From Snodgrassella alvi (GTDB lineage Bacteria; Pseudomonadota; Gammaproteobacteria; Burkholderiales; Neisseriaceae), in NCBI RefSeq assembly GCF_002777745.1, contig NZ_MEIO01000002.1, positions 1 through 49,428 on the forward strand: 49,428 nt of DNA. The letters are read 5' to 3'. The first letter of the stretch is position 1. Every line of letters starts with the position of its first letter. The position numbers and the translations under genes are program-made. Below, piece after piece: positions 1 through 8,153 of the stretch. The notes beneath the pieces were generated by a model that searched no databases, was not told where the DNA came from, and saw nothing but the letters and a program-made list of their open reading frames with translations.

Positions 1-1344
1 CGTGCTCCTTCTTATGGCAAGATTGTGAATCTGGCAGATGGTTCACTTGAGCCGGATTCGCATGAAGCAGTAAATGGCGGACAATTAAGAATAGTGAAAG
101 ACGATCTGCTCAGTTTGTCTTCATCTGCTTCAACAGGCTTATCTTCGATAAGCAGTATGGTACAAGATACACCAATAGCTCAAATTAATAATGATATTGG
201 TAATCTGCAAGAAAATACATTGCAATGGAATGGTACAGCCTATGATGCCACCCATAATGGCACTGCTCAGCGCATTACCAATGTAGCAGCCGGTCGTGTT
301 AGAGAGAATTCCACCGATGCCGTCAACAACCACCAATTGTGGGAAGTGAGAAATGATCTGAATAGTCTGTCTACAACGGTAAATAATCTGCCTACAGGAG
401 GCAATATTTCCCAGGACGCTTTGAATAATCTGTCAGCATCAATTAGTACAAGCGTAGCCAACCAGCTTCGTCCCGTAGCAGAAGCGATAGGTACAAATTT
501 ACCTTCTTCTGGTATTATTCCTGCGCCTGACTACGAAATTTATGCTCCTAACGGAGAAAGGACAGTAGTACATAATGTACGTGCTGCGCTGGAAAACATA
601 CAAAATAATGGTGCATCGATGTATGCGAAGATCAACAGCAGCAAGCAAGCATCACAAGCTAAAGGTGAGGATTCGATAGCAATAGGCGGAAATGCGGTGG
701 CTCAAGGTACCTCGGCAATTGCGATAGGTGATTCAGCGAGTGCGCCGGAAAGTAATAGTGTAGCGCTGGGTAAAGAGGCGAAAGTAACGCAGGACGGAGG
801 TGTGGCTCTGGGTGCCGGATCAGTAGCAAACAGGGCTGGCGGCCGTGGAGTTGGAGAAGTGTATATACCACCGGAAGCGAAAGGCAACGACAGGCTGGTT
901 AGCGCAATTGAAGCAACGAGAAGTAAAGAGTATGGAGCGGTATCGGTAGGAAATACAGAAGATGGACAATATCGTCAGATAACCGGCGTCGCTGCGGGTA
1001 CGGAGGATACGGATGCGGTGAATGTGGCTCAGCTTAAAGGTGTTAGTAATCAGATTAGCAAAGTAAATGAATATGTTAATCAGTTAAATGACAATCTTCA
1101 CCATGTTGAGCGCCGTGCCTATTCTGGTACTGCAATGGCAATGGCATTGTCTGGTGCCTATCTGCCGTCCCTGAGCTCTGGCGGACAGGCTGTTGGTATC
1201 GGTGTAGGTACATACCGTAGTTATGGTGCCATAGGTGTAAACTATAAGGCAGCAAGTAAAAACGGTAAAATTACGTGGGGTGCAGGTGTTTCCACTACTG
1301 GTAAAGAAGCAGCTGTTAACTCTGCAATCGGCTTTAAGTGGTAA
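1..1344 (+). CDS. YadA-like trimeric autotransporter adhesin, C-terminal part (5'-truncated by window edge)
   Basis: The reading frame is open from base 1, so the gene starts to the left of the window; only about 447 C-terminal residues are visible. Three neck/stalk motifs of the type (I)xNVAAG...DAVNxxQL are seen, near positions 22-90, 259-340 and 975-1035. Between them, around 670-770, lies a run of YadA head repeats (SIAIGGNAVAQG, SAIAIGDSA, NSVALG). The last ~80 residues (from about 1099) form the YadA membrane anchor, a short coiled coil plus four beta strands ending in ..IGFKW with a terminal aromatic residue. Such proteins trimerise, insert a 12-stranded barrel in the outer membrane (BamA-dependent) and display an adhesive stalk. 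The signal peptide and most of the passenger are outside the window. Family assignment is firm; the ligand is unknown. Three DUF2827-like genes follow directly. Confidence 0.95.
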   Translation, partial: RAPSYGKIVNLADGSLEPDSHEAVNGGQLRIVKDDLLSLSSSASTGLSSISSMVQDTPIAQINNDIGNLQENTLQWNGTAYDATHNGTAQRITNVAAGRVRENSTDAVNNHQLWEVRNDLNSLSTTVNNLPTGGNISQDALNNLSASISTSVANQLRPVAEAIGTNLPSSGIIPAPDYEIYAPNGERTVVHNVRAALENIQNNGASMYAKINSSKQASQAKGEDSIAIGGNAVAQGTSAIAIGDSASAPESNSVALGKEAKVTQDGGVALGAGSVANRAGGRGVGEVYIPPEAKGNDRLVSAIEATRSKEYGAVSVGNTEDGQYRQITGVAAGTEDTDAVNVAQLKGVSNQISKVNEYVNQLNDNLHHVERRAYSGTAMAMALSGAYLPSLSSGGQAVGIGVGTYRSYGAIGVNYKAASKNGKITWGAGVSTTGKEAAVNSAIGFKW

Positions 1345-1360
1345 AAAATCTTAGCTGAGT

Positions 1361-1401
1361 AAACTTCTGGTCTTCCTTTATGAAGCCCAGAAGTTTTATT
1401 T
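1361..1401 (+). terminator. Hairpin terminator after the adhesin gene
   Basis: A perfect 10-bp inverted repeat (AAACTTCTGG / CCAGAAGTTT, 1361-1370 and 1387-1396) is followed by TATTT. It lies 17 bases after the adhesin stop codon and before the ATG chosen for the next gene, so transcription of the downstream genes needs read-through or a promoter in the ~45 bases that follow. Confidence 0.65.
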
Positions 1402-1442
1402 GTTTATCAGTAGTAGTATTTTTACTAAGAATACGGATTAAT

Positions 1443-2588
1443 ATGCGCATCGGTATTTCTGTTATCACCCATGCTAACCAGAATATCTGGGAAAATGGTA
1501 TGGGGCAGAATATTATATTTTTAGCTCTAAGTCTGAAGGCTATCCCATTTGTTAAATCAGTTGATCTGATTAATGTGGGTGGGCAGCCGAGTATGGCTGA
1601 GCAGATTGATTTAAATCTGTTTGATTTGCGTTTAATGTCAGAGCAGGAAGCTAGTGATGCTTTCGATGTTATTATTGAGCTGGCGGGGGCATTGAATCCG
1701 CAATGGCTGGCCTTACAGCGGGCTCGTGGCAAAAAGGTGGTGTTTTATTGTGTTGGCCAGCCTTATGTGGGACTGGTGGAATATAATATATTTGAAAAAC
1801 CTACCAATTTTTCGCCGGTAGACCGTTCTGATGAGGTATGGCTGTTACCCAAAGATAAGGCTTATATTCCGATGCTGCGTACGATGTATCGCCGCCCGGT
1901 GCATGTTACGCCCTATCTGTGGGATCCGATGTTTGTATCCAAGCGCACACAGGAAATCAGTGCACTTGGCTTCCGTTTTGGCTGGCGTGGCAATTTGCAT
2001 GATGGTATTAAAACACCTTTGAATGTAGCTATTTTTGAGCCTAATATTTCAGTTGTCAAAACTTCATCTATTCCGATGCTGGCCTGTGATGAAGCTTATC
2101 GCCAGCAGCCGCAGTCAGTAGGGATGATGCATGTGCTCAATACGCTGCATATGAAAGATCATTTGACGATGCTGTATCTGGCCAATTCGCTGAATCTGGT
2201 TAAGGAGCATAAAGCCTGCTTTTATGGCCGCCATGATATAGCTGGTTTTATGGCGCAGCATGCGAATGCTGTGGTTTCACATCAATGGTGTAATGACCAG
2301 AATTATCTGTATATGGATACGCTATATGGTGATTATCCGCTGATTCACAATTCTCCGTGGCTAAAAGAGTTTGGCGCTGGTTATTATTATCCGGACTTTG
2401 ATGCACCAGAGGCAGGCAGGCAATTGATTCTTGCCTGGCAGCATCATGAGGAAAATCTGGATAGCCAGCGTCAGGCTGCGCAGGCTTTGTTTAAGGCCAT
2501 TTCTCCTTTGGCTGAAGCCAATATTGCTGCCCATACGCAACTGTTATCTAATCTGTGTGCTGATCGTCCGGAATTATTAAGAGGTTAA
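1443..2588 (+). CDS. DUF2827-like protein, putative GT-B-fold glycosyltransferase (paralogue 1 of 3)
   Basis: 381 residues from the ATG at 1443. The frame also opens at 1380, but that start lies inside the terminator hairpin, and the paralogues begin their conserved core just before the WENG motif, so 1443 is preferred; no strong Shine-Dalgarno is seen. Conserved landmarks shared with the next two genes: W(E/N)NGxxQN near residue 16, a (D)xxIE strand plus RG near 80-105, (D)(E/D)xWxxP, LWDPMF, FEPN(I)xVVKTS near 205, and a C-terminal HQWxNxxNYxY...YGxYPLIHNS block near 280-305 followed by G-Y-Y. The C-terminal pattern resembles the nucleotide-sugar half of GT-B glycosyltransferases. I recall this as the DUF2827 family, often found beside surface adhesins in Burkholderia; that recollection and the enzymatic role are inference. 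This copy has Cys (HQWCN) where the other two have Glu (WEN). It is followed after 3 bases by paralogue 2. Confidence 0.75.
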   Translation: MRIGISVITHANQNIWENGMGQNIIFLALSLKAIPFVKSVDLINVGGQPSMAEQIDLNLFDLRLMSEQEASDAFDVIIELAGALNPQWLALQRARGKKVVFYCVGQPYVGLVEYNIFEKPTNFSPVDRSDEVWLLPKDKAYIPMLRTMYRRPVHVTPYLWDPMFVSKRTQEISALGFRFGWRGNLHDGIKTPLNVAIFEPNISVVKTSSIPMLACDEAYRQQPQSVGMMHVLNTLHMKDHLTMLYLANSLNLVKEHKACFYGRHDIAGFMAQHANAVVSHQWCNDQNYLYMDTLYGDYPLIHNSPWLKEFGAGYYYPDFDAPEAGRQLILAWQHHEENLDSQRQAAQALFKAISPLAEANIAAHTQLLSNLCADRPELLRG

Positions 2589-2591
2589 TTC

Positions 2592-3722
2592 ATGCCGTCT
2601 GTGTCTTCGCTTCGTGTAGGTGTTTCGATTTATGTGCGTAAAGGAGCACAGTCGCTGTGGGAAAATGGCATTTTTCAGAATTGCCTGTTTCTGGCGATGT
2701 TATTACAGAAATCACCGATTGTTGGTAATGTGGTGCTGGTGGCTGGTTCCGGTGATGGCGATATGCAGGATGCAATGAATTTCCTGCGGGATTCGCCTGT
2801 GCCGGTGATTGATATGGCCAGTGCCATGAATGAGCTCGATGTGATGATTGAGATGAGCGCCCAGTTGGCTAAGGAATGGATGATAAATTTCAAGGCCAGA
2901 GGTGGTAAAGTAGTCAGTATGCGGGTGGGCAATGATTATGTGATTGATATTGAACGTATGCTGTTCAATAAGCCATCTGCTTTGCTGATTACGGGGGCGC
3001 CATATGATGAAGTATGGACATTACCTGAATACGAAAAAACCTGTATGCCATACTTCTCAAGTGCATTTCGTGCTCCGGTGCGGATTATGCCGCATTTATG
3101 GAGTCCGGTTATTCTGGAGCGCGCATGTGAAAAATTGTCTGAAGGTGAGCGGTTTGAGTACCGGCCGGGGCGCAGACGCTGGCGTGTTGGTATGTTTGAG
3201 CCCAATATGTGTATGGTGAAAACCAGTTATATGCCTATGCTGGTATGTGAAAGCGCACATCGGCTGAATCCGGATTTTATTGAACATATTTACGCGTGTA
3301 ATACTATGAATCTGAGAGAGCAGAAAACTTTCAGTCTGTTTGCTCAGAGTCTGGATATTGCTCGGCATGGTTTGATTTCGTTTGAAGGTCGTTATCCTAT
3401 ATGGCAGGTAGTTTCGCGTTATTGTGAGGCGATTGTTTGTCATCATTGGGAAAACGCGCAGAATTATATTTATTATGAAGCTTTGTATGGTGGCTATCCG
3501 CTGATTCATAATTCACACCTGATTGGTGATTGTGGCTATCGCTATCATGATTTTGACTGTGAAGAAGGTGGGCAGAAACTGGTGGATGCATATAAGATGC
3601 ATGATGAGAATCTTGCCAGTTATCGTGAGCAGGCAAATGCCTTTCTGGCAACTCTGTATCCTGAAGCGGAAAGCAACGTCCGCTGTTATACTGAGGCACT
3701 TGCATCGCTGTTTAAAGCTTAG
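2592..3722 (+). CDS. DUF2827-like protein, putative glycosyltransferase (paralogue 2 of 3)
   Basis: 376 residues; ATG preceded by GAGG (2580-2583) and separated from paralogue 1 by only 3 bases, so the two are co-transcribed and probably translationally coupled. It carries the shared landmarks: LWENGIFQN near residue 22, LDVMIEMSAQ near 77, DEVWTLP, LWSP, GMFEPNMCMVKTSYMPML near 199, and HHWENAQNYIYYEALYGGYP with PLIHNS near 280-310. No signal peptide or membrane segment is seen, so a cytoplasmic protein is expected. Like its neighbours it has no recognised catalytic assignment; the Rossmann-like alternation and the C-terminal G-x-P-L-I-H-N signature favour a GT-B transferase. Substrate is unknown; the adhesin immediately upstream is the obvious candidate acceptor (inference from position). 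Confidence 0.75.
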   Translation: MPSVSSLRVGVSIYVRKGAQSLWENGIFQNCLFLAMLLQKSPIVGNVVLVAGSGDGDMQDAMNFLRDSPVPVIDMASAMNELDVMIEMSAQLAKEWMINFKARGGKVVSMRVGNDYVIDIERMLFNKPSALLITGAPYDEVWTLPEYEKTCMPYFSSAFRAPVRIMPHLWSPVILERACEKLSEGERFEYRPGRRRWRVGMFEPNMCMVKTSYMPMLVCESAHRLNPDFIEHIYACNTMNLREQKTFSLFAQSLDIARHGLISFEGRYPIWQVVSRYCEAIVCHHWENAQNYIYYEALYGGYPLIHNSHLIGDCGYRYHDFDCEEGGQKLVDAYKMHDENLASYREQANAFLATLYPEAESNVRCYTEALASLFKA

Positions 3723-3798
3723 ATTGCACTGATTTTGCTATCTCTTTGATATTTATGTACATAAACCTGCCAGAAATAAAATATTCTCTATTGAAATT

Positions 3799-4989
3799 AT
3801 GAGCTTATCTAGTACTTCGAATTTAATTTCCAGCCATGATCAGGACGCTACGCCAGCACGTTTGTGTATTGGGATTACTATCGGTCTGAGCCATCCTGAA
3901 GAAACGCTGTGGAATAATGGCATTAAACAGAATGCTGTTTTTCTTGCTGATGCGCTGAAAAATTGCCCGAATGTAGATTCTGTGGTGTTGGTAAATACAA
4001 CGGGTGTACCGATTACATCAAGCTTACCTTGGGATTTGCAGGTATGGCCAACTAAAAGTTTTTCTGAGGCAAAAGATCAGGTTGATGTACTGATTGAGCT
4101 AGGTGGACAGATTAGTGCTGAGCAGACGGCCTATATCAAGAATAGAGGCGTGCGTCTGATTTCTTATTGCTGTGGTTTTGAATATATCCATATGATGGAA
4201 GCGGTTTTGTTTTCGCGTAATATGGGTGGGGCTAATCTGTTCATTAATCAACGTTATGATGATATCTGGATGATTCCGCAGGTTGCTAATTGCAGCCGGG
4301 CGTATTTTGAAGTATTTCGCCGTCATGAAGCACGTGTGGTGCCGTTTGTATGGAGTCCGATATTCTTGAATCAGAAAACGGCTGCTATACCATTTCAGGG
4401 CTCATGGCAGGCGCCGGATTCTGGTAATAAGGGTTGGCGTTTGTCGGTTATGGAACCGAATATTGATGTAGTAAAATTCTGCCTGTACCCGATTCTGATT
4501 GCAGAACTAGTGTATCGGAATAATCCTGAAGCCATTAATATCCTACAGGTTTGCAATACCTTACCGATGGCGCAGAAATCAATGGAATTCATTGCTTTAA
4601 TGAATAAGCTGGATATTGTGAGAAATCGCAAGTCTGTATTTCTGGGTCGTTATGATACACCAACATTTTTGGCAGCCAATACCGATGCGGTGATTTCACA
4701 TCAATGGGAAAATCCGCTTAATTATTTCTATCTGGAAGTATGCTGGCAGGGCTATCCTTTAATTCATAATGCAGAGATGGTTTCAGATCTAGGCTATTAT
4801 TATGCTGGCAATGATGTGCAAGCGGGTGCCAAGCAGTTATCTGCTGTGATGAACGATCATGCATGTCATTCAGCTCAGTATCTGTATAACCAACGTAAAC
4901 TGATCGCCCGCTTCCTGCCAGATAATACTGATCTGGTGGCCAGTTATTCTGCATTGCTGACAGAAGTAATGGCCAGACCATTGCGCTAA
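3799..4989 (+). CDS. DUF2827-like protein, putative glycosyltransferase (paralogue 3 of 3)
   Basis: 396 residues with an N-terminal extension of about 20 residues relative to paralogues 1 and 2 before the core begins (LCIGITIGLS...LWNNGIKQNAVFLA). A 76-base AT-rich gap separates it from paralogue 2, and the ATG has no convincing Shine-Dalgarno, so it may have its own promoter or weak translation. Landmarks: VDVLIELGGQ, DDIWMIP, VWSPIF, MEPNIDVVKF, and HQWENPLNYFYLEV followed by GYPLIHN. It is the most diverged copy: the YGGYP context becomes WQGYP, and KTS after the FEPN-type motif becomes KFC. It ends 6 bases before the stop codon of the convergent dehydrogenase gene, with no terminator in between. 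Same family inference as its neighbours; function unproven. Confidence 0.72.
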   Translation: MSLSSTSNLISSHDQDATPARLCIGITIGLSHPEETLWNNGIKQNAVFLADALKNCPNVDSVVLVNTTGVPITSSLPWDLQVWPTKSFSEAKDQVDVLIELGGQISAEQTAYIKNRGVRLISYCCGFEYIHMMEAVLFSRNMGGANLFINQRYDDIWMIPQVANCSRAYFEVFRRHEARVVPFVWSPIFLNQKTAAIPFQGSWQAPDSGNKGWRLSVMEPNIDVVKFCLYPILIAELVYRNNPEAINILQVCNTLPMAQKSMEFIALMNKLDIVRNRKSVFLGRYDTPTFLAANTDAVISHQWENPLNYFYLEVCWQGYPLIHNAEMVSDLGYYYAGNDVQAGAKQLSAVMNDHACHSAQYLYNQRKLIARFLPDNTDLVASYSALLTEVMARPLR

Positions 4990-4995
4990 TTACTT

Positions 4996-5931
4996 TTATT
5001 TTTTACACATATAAGTGTTAATATTGTCCTCTAGGATGGTACAGATACGCTGTATGGCTTCTTCGCTGCCCCATGCCATATGCGGGGTAATAATCAGGTT
5101 AGGCAGGTGAGCACGCAGTAATGGATTACCATGTACGGGCGGTTCTTCGCTTAGTACATCTACACCTGCTCCGCCTAACTGTCCGTATTTCAATGCGGCT
5201 ACTAATGCCTCTTCCGCTACCAGACCACCGCGTCCTACATTAATCAGTACAGTCTGTGGTTTCATCATTTTTAATTCTGCTTCATCAATCAGATTACGTG
5301 TTTGCTCATTCAGGGGACAATGCAGGGATATGACGTCGGCTTGCTGTATGAGCTGGGTAAATGGTGTGTAGCCATTACGGCAGCTAGTGGCATTTTTGTG
5401 TTCACCCCAGAGAATATGCATTCCGAAAGCCTGAGCTCGTGCTGCCAGTGCCTGTCCGATGCCGCCTTTCCCGAAAATACCCAGTGTTTTGCCGTTCAGA
5501 TCACGGATGGGAGCACCGAAGTGGCAGAAAAAAGGGCTGTTTTGCCATAATCCGGCCGCTATATCGCGCTGATAAGCCGGTAAATGACGCATTAATGCCA
5601 GAATAAGCATCATTGCATGTTCGGCAACAGTATCGTTGCCATAGCCACGGACATTGCGTATACCTACGTTGTGTTCTTGTGCCGCTTGCTGATCAATATG
5701 ATCCAGACCGGTAGCCGGTACGGCAATTAGTTGCAGTTGCGGACTGTTGCTGATGGCATCGGCATCAATGCGTACTTTGTTGGATACGACAATATTGGCA
5801 TGAGCGATTCGAGCGGCAACTTCATCTGGACTGCTATGGCTGTAGCTGGTGATATGATGGGGAAACTGGAAGTTGAACGGGAACTCGGGCAGGGTGGCAC
5901 GATCCAGAAAAACAATTTCGCTGATATTCAT
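4996..5931 (-). CDS. hprA: D-isomer-specific 2-hydroxyacid dehydrogenase (glycerate/hydroxypyruvate reductase-like)
   Basis: 311 residues. The NAD-binding Rossmann motif GKGGIG is at about 154-159, and the three catalytic residues of the family are present: Arg234 (NVGRGG), Glu263 (LSEEPP) and His284 (ITPHMAW). The enzyme reduces a 2-keto acid to the D-2-hydroxy acid with NAD(P)H in the cytoplasm; length and the GYGNDTVAEH stretch resemble the glycerate dehydrogenase (HprA) subgroup of Neisseria. Substrate within the superfamily cannot be fixed from sequence alone (D-lactate or glyoxylate are alternatives). It is divergent from the FKBP gene and convergent with paralogue 3 of the DUF2827-like set. 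Confidence 0.85.
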   Translation of the reverse strand: MNISEIVFLDRATLPEFPFNFQFPHHITSYSHSSPDEVAARIAHANIVVSNKVRIDADAISNSPQLQLIAVPATGLDHIDQQAAQEHNVGIRNVRGYGNDTVAEHAMMLILALMRHLPAYQRDIAAGLWQNSPFFCHFGAPIRDLNGKTLGIFGKGGIGQALAARAQAFGMHILWGEHKNATSCRNGYTPFTQLIQQADVISLHCPLNEQTRNLIDEAELKMMKPQTVLINVGRGGLVAEEALVAALKYGQLGGAGVDVLSEEPPVHGNPLLRAHLPNLIITPHMAWGSEEAIQRICTILEDNINTYMCKK

Positions 5932-6436: not shown

Positions 6437-7813
6437 ATGATGGAGAATAATCCGACTATTGCTGCGATTGCAACTGCGCCCGGGCGTGGTGGAGTGGGGG
6501 TAGTGCGTTTGTCCGGTAAAAATCTACTGTCTCTGGCGCAAAAATTAAGTGGTGGCAAAACGCCTGTACCACGCAGGGTGATGTATACCGATTTTGTTGA
6601 TGAACAGGGTGCTGTTATTGATAATGGTTTGCTGCTGTATTTTGCGGCACCGGCCAGCTTTACTGGTGAGGATGTGGTTGAGTTACAGGGGCATGGCGGG
6701 CCGGTAGTGTTGCAGATGTTATTGCAACGCTGCCTGCAACTGGGCGCCCGGCTGGCTGAACCGGGAGAGTTTACCAAACGTGCTTTTCTAAATAACAAAC
6801 TGGATCTGGCACAGGCTGAAAGTGTGGCTGATTTGATTGATGCTTCCAGCCAGTCTGCAGCACGCATGGCGGTGCGCAGCCTGAAAGGGGCATTTTCGCA
6901 GGAAATTCACCGACTGGTAGATGAGCTGATTACTTTGCGCATGCTGGTGGAAGCAACGCTGGATTTTCCAGAGGAGGACATTGATTTTCTTCAGGCAGCG
7001 GATGCCAGCGGTAAGCTGGCGCAGTTGCGCAGCCAGTTGGACAAGGTGCTGCTGCATGCACAACAGGGCGCATTGTTACGTGAAGGCATGAATGTGGTGC
7101 TGGTAGGGGCGCCCAATGTGGGTAAATCGAGCCTGCTCAATGCGCTGGCAGGTGATGATGTGGCGATTGTCACTGATATTGCTGGTACAACGCGGGATAC
7201 GGTCAGGGAGCAGATTACGCTGGATGGTGTACCGGTACATATTATTGATACGGCTGGTTTGCGTGAAACTGAGGATGTGGTTGAGCGTATCGGTATTGAA
7301 CGCAGTCAGCAGGCGGTACAACAGGCGGATGTAGCACTGGTGCTGGTTGACCAGCGTGAAGGTATAAATGCCACCACAGCGGCGATTCTGGCGCAGTTAC
7401 CGGCAGGTTTACACAAGATTGAAGTGCATAATAAGATTGATTTAACAGGTGAAGATGCTGCGAGTGTTTCACGTGAAACCGGCCAGCTACAGGCATTTAC
7501 GGATGCGGAACAGGTGATTGCTCTGTCTGCCAGAACGGGTGTCGGTCTGGATTTACTGCGTCGGGCGCTGTTGCAGCAAGTGGGCTGGCAGGGAGAAAGT
7601 GAAGGCCTGTTTCTGGCACGAACACGCCATATTCAGGCTCTTGAGCACGCTCAGCAGGAGTTGCTGAATGCCAGTTTATGTCAGGATAATCAGATTGAGC
7701 TGTTGGCGGAACATTTGCGTCTGGCTCAAAATGCATTAAATGAAATTACCGGTGAATTCAGTGCCGATGATTTGCTGGGGGTGATTTTTAGCCGGTTTTG
7801 TATTGGTAAATAA
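6437..7813 (+). CDS. mnmE: tRNA uridine-5-carboxymethylaminomethyl modification GTPase MnmE
   Basis: 458 residues. The N-terminal tetrahydrofolate-binding domain opens with [15 protein letters not shown]; the inserted G domain has G1 APNVGKSS (about residue 225), GTTRD, DTAGLRE (about 270) and NKID (about 332); the protein ends in the invariant FCIGK, whose Cys is needed for catalysis. With MnmG it adds the cmnm5 group to the wobble uridine of several tRNAs. MnmG is not in this window. Three in-frame starts are possible, TTG 6434, ATG 6437 and ATG 6440; the GGGG at 6428-6431 suits 6437 or 6440, and 6437 is given. Confidence 0.97.
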
Positions 7814-7843
7814 GTTTTTAGCAGAAGATATTAGTCTGTTGGC

Positions 7844-7883
7844 AGCACTAACTACTGTTGTGAAGGGTAGTTAGTGCTTTTTT
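7844..7883 (+). terminator. Rho-independent terminator after mnmE
   Basis: A perfect 12-bp stem (AGCACTAACTAC, 7844-7855; GTAGTTAGTGCT, 7867-7878) with an 11-base loop is followed directly by six T. Confidence 0.92.
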
Positions 7884-7943
7884 GTTCTGGATGTGGCTGA
7901 ATTGCTGTTGTGATGATAAATAGGATAGGTATGACAGCTACGG

Positions 7944-8153
7944 TTAAAGCGCTTGTAAGAGAGCAAATCTTGGCAGGGTCTGACCATTGATGGTTATGGT
8001 CTCGATAAACATGCTTTTTGGGCGTACCCAGGTTGAATAATCACCATACAGACACTGGTAGATAACCAGTTCTTCTTCGGTTTCGCTATGGCGTGCTGTT
8101 CCGGTAACCTGATACAGTTTGCCTTTGTAATGTTGGTAGATGCCACGTTGCAT
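7944..8153 (-). CDS. Small DUF1653-family protein
   Basis: 69 residues, the usual size for DUF1653 proteins. The family pattern is clear: G-I-Y-x-H-Y-K-G-x-x-Y-x-V, [18 protein letters not shown], and WVRPKSMF followed by an acidic residue and, near the end, LPRFALL. It is a cytoplasmic protein of unknown function with an SH3-like beta fold predicted for the family. It stands alone on the minus strand between mnmE and cysI. Identification is firm, role unknown. Confidence 0.88.

Follow-up and report, generated by a model that had tools for sequence, protein, structure and literature searches.

The window analysed here, i.e., the 49,428 nucleotides at the start of contig 2 of a 2.6-Mb Snodgrassella alvi genome (G000:C2:1-49428), opens with the C-terminal part of a trimeric autotransporter (TAA) adhesin, followed on the same strand by three paralogous genes encoding proteins of the Pfam family DUF2827 (PF10933; Table 1). 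The 5' part of the TAA gene lies beyond the contig start, where the gene is truncated. The remaining fragment was matched by the Pfam models YadA_stalk (E = 2.4e-28) and YadA_head (E = 4.5e-10), and its YadA_anchor match (E = 9e-4, 19.7 bits) was below the Pfam cut-off of 22.7, with a score of 23.2 in the genome-wide search. An earlier interpretation of the letters, termed the sequence-only reading hereafter, had seen a YadA-type C-terminus followed by three same-strand paralogues, and Pfam matches and open reading frames (ORFs) confirmed this arrangement. The same reading had called the gene family unannotated, which was incorrect, as all three proteins are full-length matches to DUF2827 (cut-off 25 bits). 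They share pairwise identities of 30–36%, and a profile search of the genome revealed no further DUF2827 genes.

Table 1. Positions of features in the window and, where a locus handle (L) is given, at other loci.
Feature	Position	Strand	Basis or remark
TAA adhesin, C-terminal part: stalk, head repeats, anchor	1..1344	+	Pfam YadA_stalk/head/anchor
Ser/Thr-rich coil behind neck motif (LLSLSSSASTGLSSISSM), candidate acceptor type, local in TAA fragment	106..159	+	window scan
TAA anchor PF03895	1189-1341 (about)	+	genome search
Hairpin, then T-rich stretch, between adhesin and first DUF2827 gene	1361..1396	+	fold z -4.38
DUF2827 class 1	1443..2588 (listed ORF from 1380)	+	PF10933 E 7.3e-114, 380.8 bits
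DUF2827 class 2, GT-B in AlphaFold model	2592..3722	+	PF10933 E 9.6e-142, 472.5 bits
DUF2827 class 3	3799..4989	+	PF10933 E 7.6e-138, 459.7 bits
Gene of D-2-hydroxyacid dehydrogenase kind, end of gene group	4996-5931	convergent	
Partner protein of ~200 residues	L039:5889-6488; L127:15143-15796		relatives elsewhere
Ser/Thr coiled-coil frame	L207:5248-6204 (L207/L208)		ends 21 bp before DUF2827 match; contig with phage head genes
Ser/Thr coiled-coil frame	L210:6790-7572		~430 bp upstream of DUF2827, frame 7562-8143 between; contig with phage portal gene

Most of the ten class 1 frames compared begin at or near MRIGIS, which corresponds to position 1443 in the window, and the listed start at 1380 is therefore probably too early; with the later start, the protein lacks a hydrophobic leader. 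Over 19 residues, hydropathy peaks at 1.67, 1.74, and 1.37 in the three proteins, so that two exceed 1.6, the threshold often applied for membrane helices. Because both peaks sit on the first helix-strand of a predicted Rossmann-like domain, a membrane segment is unlikely, in agreement with the sequence-only reading, although two of three peaks pass the threshold. The literature searched, which mostly did not extend to subscription papers and preprints, contained no functional study of DUF2827. DUF2827 is named in one paper of the PMC library, on the database list CysDuF, where it is placed under 'Uronic acid pathway' (PMC12828279), a label for which we found neither support nor exclusion. No PHROGs match was obtained for the window proteins.

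The second protein was modeled by AlphaFold2 together with 86 family members (pLDDT 94.2, pTM 0.92). The model comprises two Rossmann-like domains and matches GT-B structures significantly, which bears out the GT-B-like features noticed in the sequence-only reading for the one protein modeled. Foldseek returned 159 matches against the PDB at E ≤ 0.001, and the 50 top matches listed are, by title, all glycosyltransferases, synthases of that kind, or a pseudo-glycosyltransferase. The best ones are retaining GT4-type GT-B enzymes, i.e., the mycobacterial mannosyltransferase 7qsg (E = 7.6e-10), HepE, MshA, BshA, and SenB, and the pneumococcal adhesin O-GlcNAc transferase GtfA (4pqg) is found at rank 41 (E = 2e-7). 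TM-scores over the query of 0.46–0.64 indicate that the predicted fold is GT-B and do not indicate a close relative. Searching the PDB by sequence profile gave two matches (E = 0.27 and 0.81), which were taken as chance. Furthermore, the closest viral model to the second protein in BFVD, with a TMq of 0.82 at 18% identity, was that of an uncharacterized protein from Pyramimonas orientalis virus; its TM-score exceeds that of every PDB match listed, pointing to a DUF2827-like protein in a virus of algae.

Of the 22 positions checked, 14, including E203, N205, K210, N291, H306, and N307, did not vary across 236 family rows (222 distinct; overlapping loci give overlapping rows). N288 was kept in 233 of the 236 rows, and position 296 is Asp or Glu in all of them. 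We take N288-x7-D/E296 to be the site of the E-x7-E motif of GT4 enzymes, mapped by pattern rather than by superposition. All 22 positions are kept in the three window proteins, apart from the choice between Asp and Glu at 296, where the class 1 protein has Asp in place of E296 of the second protein.

The genomic context was analyzed for 80 named loci, the best of 275 stretches from one scan of a genome-contig collection; because the ranking was by match to the first window protein, near relatives are over-represented. The closest five are Snodgrassella strains, in which the first DUF2827 protein is 85–93% identical. TAAs were called in the fetched flank at ≥ 40 bits by a home-made profile whose training set came from these loci and whose range extends into the stalk repeats. 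A TAA ORF was present in 68 of 80 loci, with the nearest one within 1 kb in 63 (in two of these, L081 and L107, the TAA ORF overlaps a decayed or partial DUF2827 frame) and within 150 bp in 46, and it was located directly upstream on the same strand in 52. C-terminal anchors backed the TAA in 64 loci (37 in one search and 27 more in another, counting the L079 and L080 remnants), and six other TAAs extend past the fetched stretch. As a background, 215 PF03895 anchors were found in the 49 genomes searched, which represent 50 of the 80 loci. This density of ~0.67 per Mb leads to an expectation of about one locus in 80 with a TAA, the true value being somewhat higher because PF03895 is less sensitive than the home-made profile. 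Three Caballeronia-type loci (L079, L080, and L081) carry a later DUF2827 gene and an adhesin that both look decayed beside an intact class 1 gene, which suggests joint loss.

Co-occurrence was also seen across whole genomes. Among 399 genomes of the same order, 7 were positive for DUF2827 and 36 for TAAs, and all seven belonged to both groups (an eighth DUF2827 match, in G694, was below the cut-off). Leaving aside the genome of the window, TAAs were present in 6/6 DUF2827-positive genomes compared to 35/398 overall (p = 3e-7), with an anchor 0.1–2.3 kb from DUF2827 in five of the six. In the phylum sample, DUF2827 was found in 6 of 398 genomes, own genome included; in one from another order (G371), a TAA lies 151 bp upstream. 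Within the genus Snodgrassella, 11 of 14 genomes (again with our own) encode DUF2827, and all 11 encode a TAA; of the other three, two lack a PF03895 match (one of these is 86% complete) and one has two TAAs without the word SLST, which is described below. The survey proposed along with the sequence-only reading thus gave a distribution that is not independent of TAAs, and the DUF2827 genes are found beside, and co-distributed with, the putative acceptor, like those of a dedicated adhesin glycosyltransferase.

To compare composition, TAAs were regarded as linked if located ≤ 1 kb from DUF2827, with a C-terminal anchor and at least 300 residues (65 found, 43 after removal of near-copies). L154 and L164, being the linked adhesins of L062 and L053, were counted as linked, and two ambiguous L156 rows were dropped. 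Unlinked TAAs (30) came from 42 regions selected manually and blind to composition, of which 40 lie in the background genomes and 2 in the window's own; the remaining regions were linked, ambiguous, or without a passing ORF. Another 19 TAAs were taken from 20 regions of DUF2827-negative genomes. Anchors were called in all sets by a home-made anchor profile with a loosened last-residue filter. The median Ser + Thr content was 41.7% in linked TAAs, 20.8% in unlinked TAAs, and 19.8% in TAAs of DUF2827-negative genomes, with p-values of 2.7e-9 and 6.5e-9 for linked TAAs against the two other sets, related TAAs being treated as independent. Linked exceeded unlinked TAAs in 19 of 22 genomes (Wilcoxon, 1.2e-5). 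Both Ser and Thr are enriched. A 24-residue window with ≥ 60% Ser + Thr occurs in 41/43 linked, 6/30 unlinked, and 0/19 DUF2827-negative TAAs, and the word SLST in 42/43, 7/30, and 2/19, respectively. Charged residues are rare in linked TAAs (4.7% vs. 10.8% and 15.6%). This Ser/Thr richness of DUF2827-linked TAAs is new in the present analysis.

The sequence-only reading had described the stalk as rich in Ser, Thr, and Asn. This applies to Ser and Thr in linked TAAs, while the window fragment itself contains a single Ser/Thr-rich coil piece (24 residues, 46% Ser + Thr); it does not apply to Asn, which is lower in linked TAAs (5.5% vs. 8.3%). N-x-S/T sequons were not enriched either (1.50 per 100 residues vs. 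1.93 in unlinked TAAs and 1.76 in DUF2827-negative genomes), and sequon N-glycosylation was rejected as the main link for this reason. The heptad pattern was analyzed in 139 stretches chosen for ≥ 50% Ser + Thr (43,327 residues). An aliphatic residue is followed by another seven positions on in 53% of cases, compared to 23% in shuffles. When the register was fitted to place aliphatics at a (70%) and d (59%), Ser/Thr occupied b, c, e, and f at 72, 86, 70, and 90%. Lys, Arg, and Glu account for 0.1–0.2% each. Judged by this periodicity, the stretches ('SLST repeats') are coiled coil with an outer face of mostly hydroxyl groups. The repeats can be extensive: ~1.1–1.2 kb upstream of DUF2827, a B. 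cenocepacia record has a TAA ORF of 2,744 residues with 94 SLST words, and a B. multivorans record one of 2,516 residues with 87. Furthermore, a one-contig Snodgrassella genome encodes three TAAs with 24, 33, and 32 SLST words, and since two of these are not beside DUF2827, action in trans on other TAAs is likely.

The three paralogues fall into distinct classes. On a tree of the 236 rows, the position labels cluster (25 changes vs. a shuffled mean of 116), and on a 72-row tree, from which the classes were also assigned by distance to the window proteins, each class lies on one side of a branch with SH-aLRT values of 99, 98, and 100; five rows (from G183, G337, and G371) fall outside the three classes. 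The order 1-2-3 was found in 43 of the 80 named loci. Class 3 lies on the opposite strand upstream of 1-2 in eight loci, with the adhesin between in six; classes 1 and 2 only are present in 24 loci, a single copy in four, and classes 1 and 3 in one. Class 2 never precedes class 1 in the 80 loci, and the order is fixed in Neisseriaceae and Burkholderiales alike. In all three classes, the 72-row tree places Snodgrassella next to Comamonadaceae. Because the classes separate on the trees and their order is fixed, the copies are, on phylogenetic grounds, old and have been retained separately rather than arising by recent duplication, as would suit roles in different steps or with different sugars or partners.

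Relatives of DUF2827 (29–40% identity) were identified on eight viral contigs, apparently six distinct ones. In two of the six, a Ser/Thr-rich coiled-coil frame that is not a TAA, chosen by eye, lies upstream of DUF2827 (Table 1). The repeats of the L210 frame (28.6% Ser, 14.7% Thr) stay below the 60% window, a screen that proved noisy in GC-rich viral contigs, where most of its 11 rows were in other frames. As far as they go, these pairs speak for the Ser/Thr coiled coil, rather than the TAA as such, as the partner. On another viral contig (L211:5227-7971), DUF2827 is immediately preceded by two tandem ORFs; the second one matches Pfam Glyco_transf_34 above the cut-off (E = 2.5e-8). DUF2827 was further found in 18 of 72,556 plasmid records, seven of them typed conjugative. 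Conjugative Burkholderia plasmids (L127, L128, and L129) carry adhesin–DUF2827 cassettes with OmpA-family genes, placed between adhesin and DUF2827 in two of the three annotated copies and farther downstream in the third. TPR genes are nearby in two of the three, and the L128 cassette adjoins a type VI secretion cluster.

Based on these data, we consider it probable that the three DUF2827 proteins act as soluble GT-B glycosyltransferases in the cytoplasm and that, before export, they attach sugar to Ser/Thr hydroxyls along the coiled-coil stalk of the adjacent adhesin; other Ser/Thr-rich TAAs of the cell are probably acceptors as well. The basis is the predicted fold, the invariant residues, gene linkage, class order, and a Ser/Thr-rich, little-charged heptad stalk, from which we infer catalytic activity, a nucleotide-sugar donor, the Ser/Thr stalk as acceptor, the type of linkage, and the order of steps. 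The proposal of the sequence-only reading that this family could modify the adhesin is supported to this extent, by the GT-B fold and by a distribution tied to autotransporters.

Several findings weigh against O-glycosylation of the stalk by DUF2827. None of the three proteins matched a glycosyltransferase Pfam model at E ≤ 1, GT4-type models included, and the GT4 E-x7-E motif is not kept but replaced by N288-x7-D/E296. Regarding linkage, a TAA ORF of ≥ 40 bits is missing from the flank in 12 of 80 loci (L036, L037, L050, L071, L079, L080, L084, L087, L091, L092, L104, and L106), several of which have short flanks and four of which (L050, L079, L080, and L084) contain TAA remnants or pieces. 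The DUF2827 genes of G183 are 173 kb from the nearest anchor. Regarding composition, ten TAAs located 1–15 kb from DUF2827, which were set aside, have a median Ser + Thr of 24.9%, linked TAAs do not exceed unlinked ones in three of 22 genomes (G784, G792, and G806), the six unlinked TAAs with a 60% window are Ser/Thr-rich as well, and the gamma-proteobacterial pair L175 stays below this window. In Snodgrassella, linked TAAs contain 21–29% Ser + Thr overall and show the pattern only locally. An anchor-domain tree yielded two supported independent pairs only (on average 1.5 concordant and 0 discordant), too few for a test, which is why the p-values above treat related TAAs as independent. Finally, no DUF2827 match was found in 50,697 phage records, and four of the six distinct viral contigs (L209, L211, L212, and L213/L214) lack a Ser/Thr coiled-coil partner.

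The main rival explanation, which we regard as unlikely, holds that the general periplasmic oligosaccharyltransferase PglL glycosylates the Ser-rich stalks, with DUF2827 acting on another target, for example LPS or a lipid-linked glycan. Synthesis of the latter is a common role of GT-B enzymes, which counts in favor of this explanation. Moreover, PglL is genus-wide in Burkholderia and prefers Ser in disordered periplasmic regions, as stated in the available part of the source (PMC12645811), whereas the linked stalks are coiled coil by their pattern and enriched in Thr besides Ser. A role elsewhere also leaves aside the distance of ≤ 1 kb from the adhesin in 63 of 80 loci and the pairing with Ser/Thr coiled coils on two viral contigs. 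The replacement of the first Glu of E-x7-E by Asn and the occurrence of the pseudo-glycosyltransferase VldE among the fold matches would instead suit a GT-B fold without transferase activity, in which case the proteins would act in the cytoplasm as chaperones of long repetitive stalks or as sensors of their folding. However, the same polar residue set is kept in all three classes, and for a plain chaperone, the conservation of three distinct copies sharing a pocket would be hard to explain, so that we consider this quite improbable.

An even smaller chance is given to DUF2827 proteins being HMW1C-like N-glycosyltransferases that act on Asn of adhesin sequons. Such a case has a precedent in Kingella, whose TAA Knh is N-glucosylated by an HMW1C homologue according to the part of the report available (PMC9592894), but sequons are fewer in linked TAAs and no match to the N-glycosyltransferase (NGT) family was obtained. 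The least probable explanation is hitch-hiking, i.e., that DUF2827 and Ser-rich TAAs merely share mobile islands without a functional link. The plasmid-borne copies, some conjugative, and the position of Snodgrassella beside Comamonadaceae in all three classes are compatible with it, but immediate adjacency, a class order fixed across families, and the unrelated Ser/Thr coiled coils paired with DUF2827 on two viral contigs argue for a functional link.

If DUF2827 proteins glycosylate the stalk, adhesin and enzymes would be co-produced, and sugar would be added to Ser/Thr of the coil in the cytoplasm, ahead of Sec export. Enzymes of the BAHT and NGT families likewise act on other autotransporters in the cytoplasm before export, as described in the accessible part of a review (PMC8151025). 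Classes 1 and 2, as the constant core, would start or extend the glycan, and class 3, which many loci lack or encode on the opposite strand, would add a further unit as extender or modifier. The resulting sugar shell would solubilize, protect, or space a stalk otherwise almost devoid of surface charge. The hairpin between adhesin and first DUF2827 gene is kept in 6/6 aligned Snodgrassella sequences, with only one pair changed on both sides, and was missed by a terminator scan with a loop limit of 8. It is a possible attenuator and may lower the enzyme dose relative to the adhesin. An additional component may be a protein of ~200 residues, the gene for which adjoins DUF2827 in 38 of the 80 named loci and often separates class 2 from class 3; none of the eight Snodgrassella-group loci has it. 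By eye, its N-terminus resembles a signal peptide, and an alignment of 21 members showed four invariant Cys; no Pfam match was found in five members scanned, and its model (pLDDT 91) had no fold match at E ≤ 0.001. This protein may help adhesin biogenesis.

More tentatively, and with slightly less confidence than would tip the balance in its favor, DUF2827 could be a third, unrecognized cytoplasmic O-glycosyltransferase family dedicated to Ser/Thr-faced trimeric coiled coils. Its three classes would build a short glycan stepwise on a 'mucin-like coiled coil', which would explain the SLST repeats of Burkholderia, and some phages would have borrowed single copies for their own Ser/Thr coiled-coil proteins. 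If true, this would extend the cytoplasmic glycosyltransferases known for type 5 secreted proteins by a third class with a distinct acceptor type, assign a function to a widespread DUF together with a candidate enzyme for SLST repeats, and provide possible catalysts for dense O-glycosylation of designed coiled coils. It would also bear on surface construction of a bee gut symbiont.

For type 5 secreted proteins, the 2021 review distinguishes two classes of cytoplasmic glycosyltransferases (PMC8151025). The first one, BAHT (AAH and TibC), resembles the DUF2827 system in that the enzymes are cytoplasmic, are encoded beside or apart from the autotransporter, and O-glycosylate Ser/Thr of the passenger; the BAHT question is posed there for beta-helix passengers (PMC8151025), whereas DUF2827 occurs with a trimeric coiled coil. 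The DUF2827 locus further differs by its three paralogues and by the lack of a sequence match to BAHT: TIGR04414 gave no NCBIfam match at E ≤ 0.1 for the three proteins and none in the window's own genome. BAHT enzymes also adopt a GT-B fold and are marked by iron binding, a dodecameric assembly, and an ADP-heptose donor. The second class, HMW1C/NGT (GT41), likewise comprises cytoplasmic enzymes that modify adhesins, including a TAA in the part of the report at hand (PMC9592894), but these act N-linked at sequons, which are not enriched in DUF2827-linked TAAs. PF13844 did not match the three proteins at E ≤ 1, nor any protein of the genome, which thus lacks matches to both known cytoplasmic adhesin glycosyltransferase families. 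No relatedness of DUF2827 to BAHT or NGT by sequence was seen in these searches. A further system, GtfA/GtfB of streptococcal serine-rich repeat adhesins, shares the GT-B fold (4pqg match). There, GtfA/GtfB and further transferases, i.e., several enzymes, are encoded with one Ser/Thr-repeat adhesin in a Gram-positive accessory-Sec context. Unlike in GtfA/GtfB, all three DUF2827 copies keep the putative active-site residues. With regard to the acceptor, the closest likeness is to the Burkholderia TAAs BoaA, BoaB, BMA1027, and BCAM2418, for which the same repeats as in DUF2827-linked TAAs are described in the accessible parts of the reports (PMC2955633, PMC4021183, PMC7142374). O-glycosylation of the BCAM2418 repeats was suggested in 2020 with no enzyme proposed in the part available (PMC7142374), and the accessible literature on the Burkholderia cenocepacia TAA cluster names no glycosyltransferase beside it. 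No link of DUF2827 or SLST stalks to a glycosyltransferase was found in the literature searched, which for the most part did not include subscription papers and preprints. The present analysis differs from these descriptions in linking DUF2827 to the SLST repeats.

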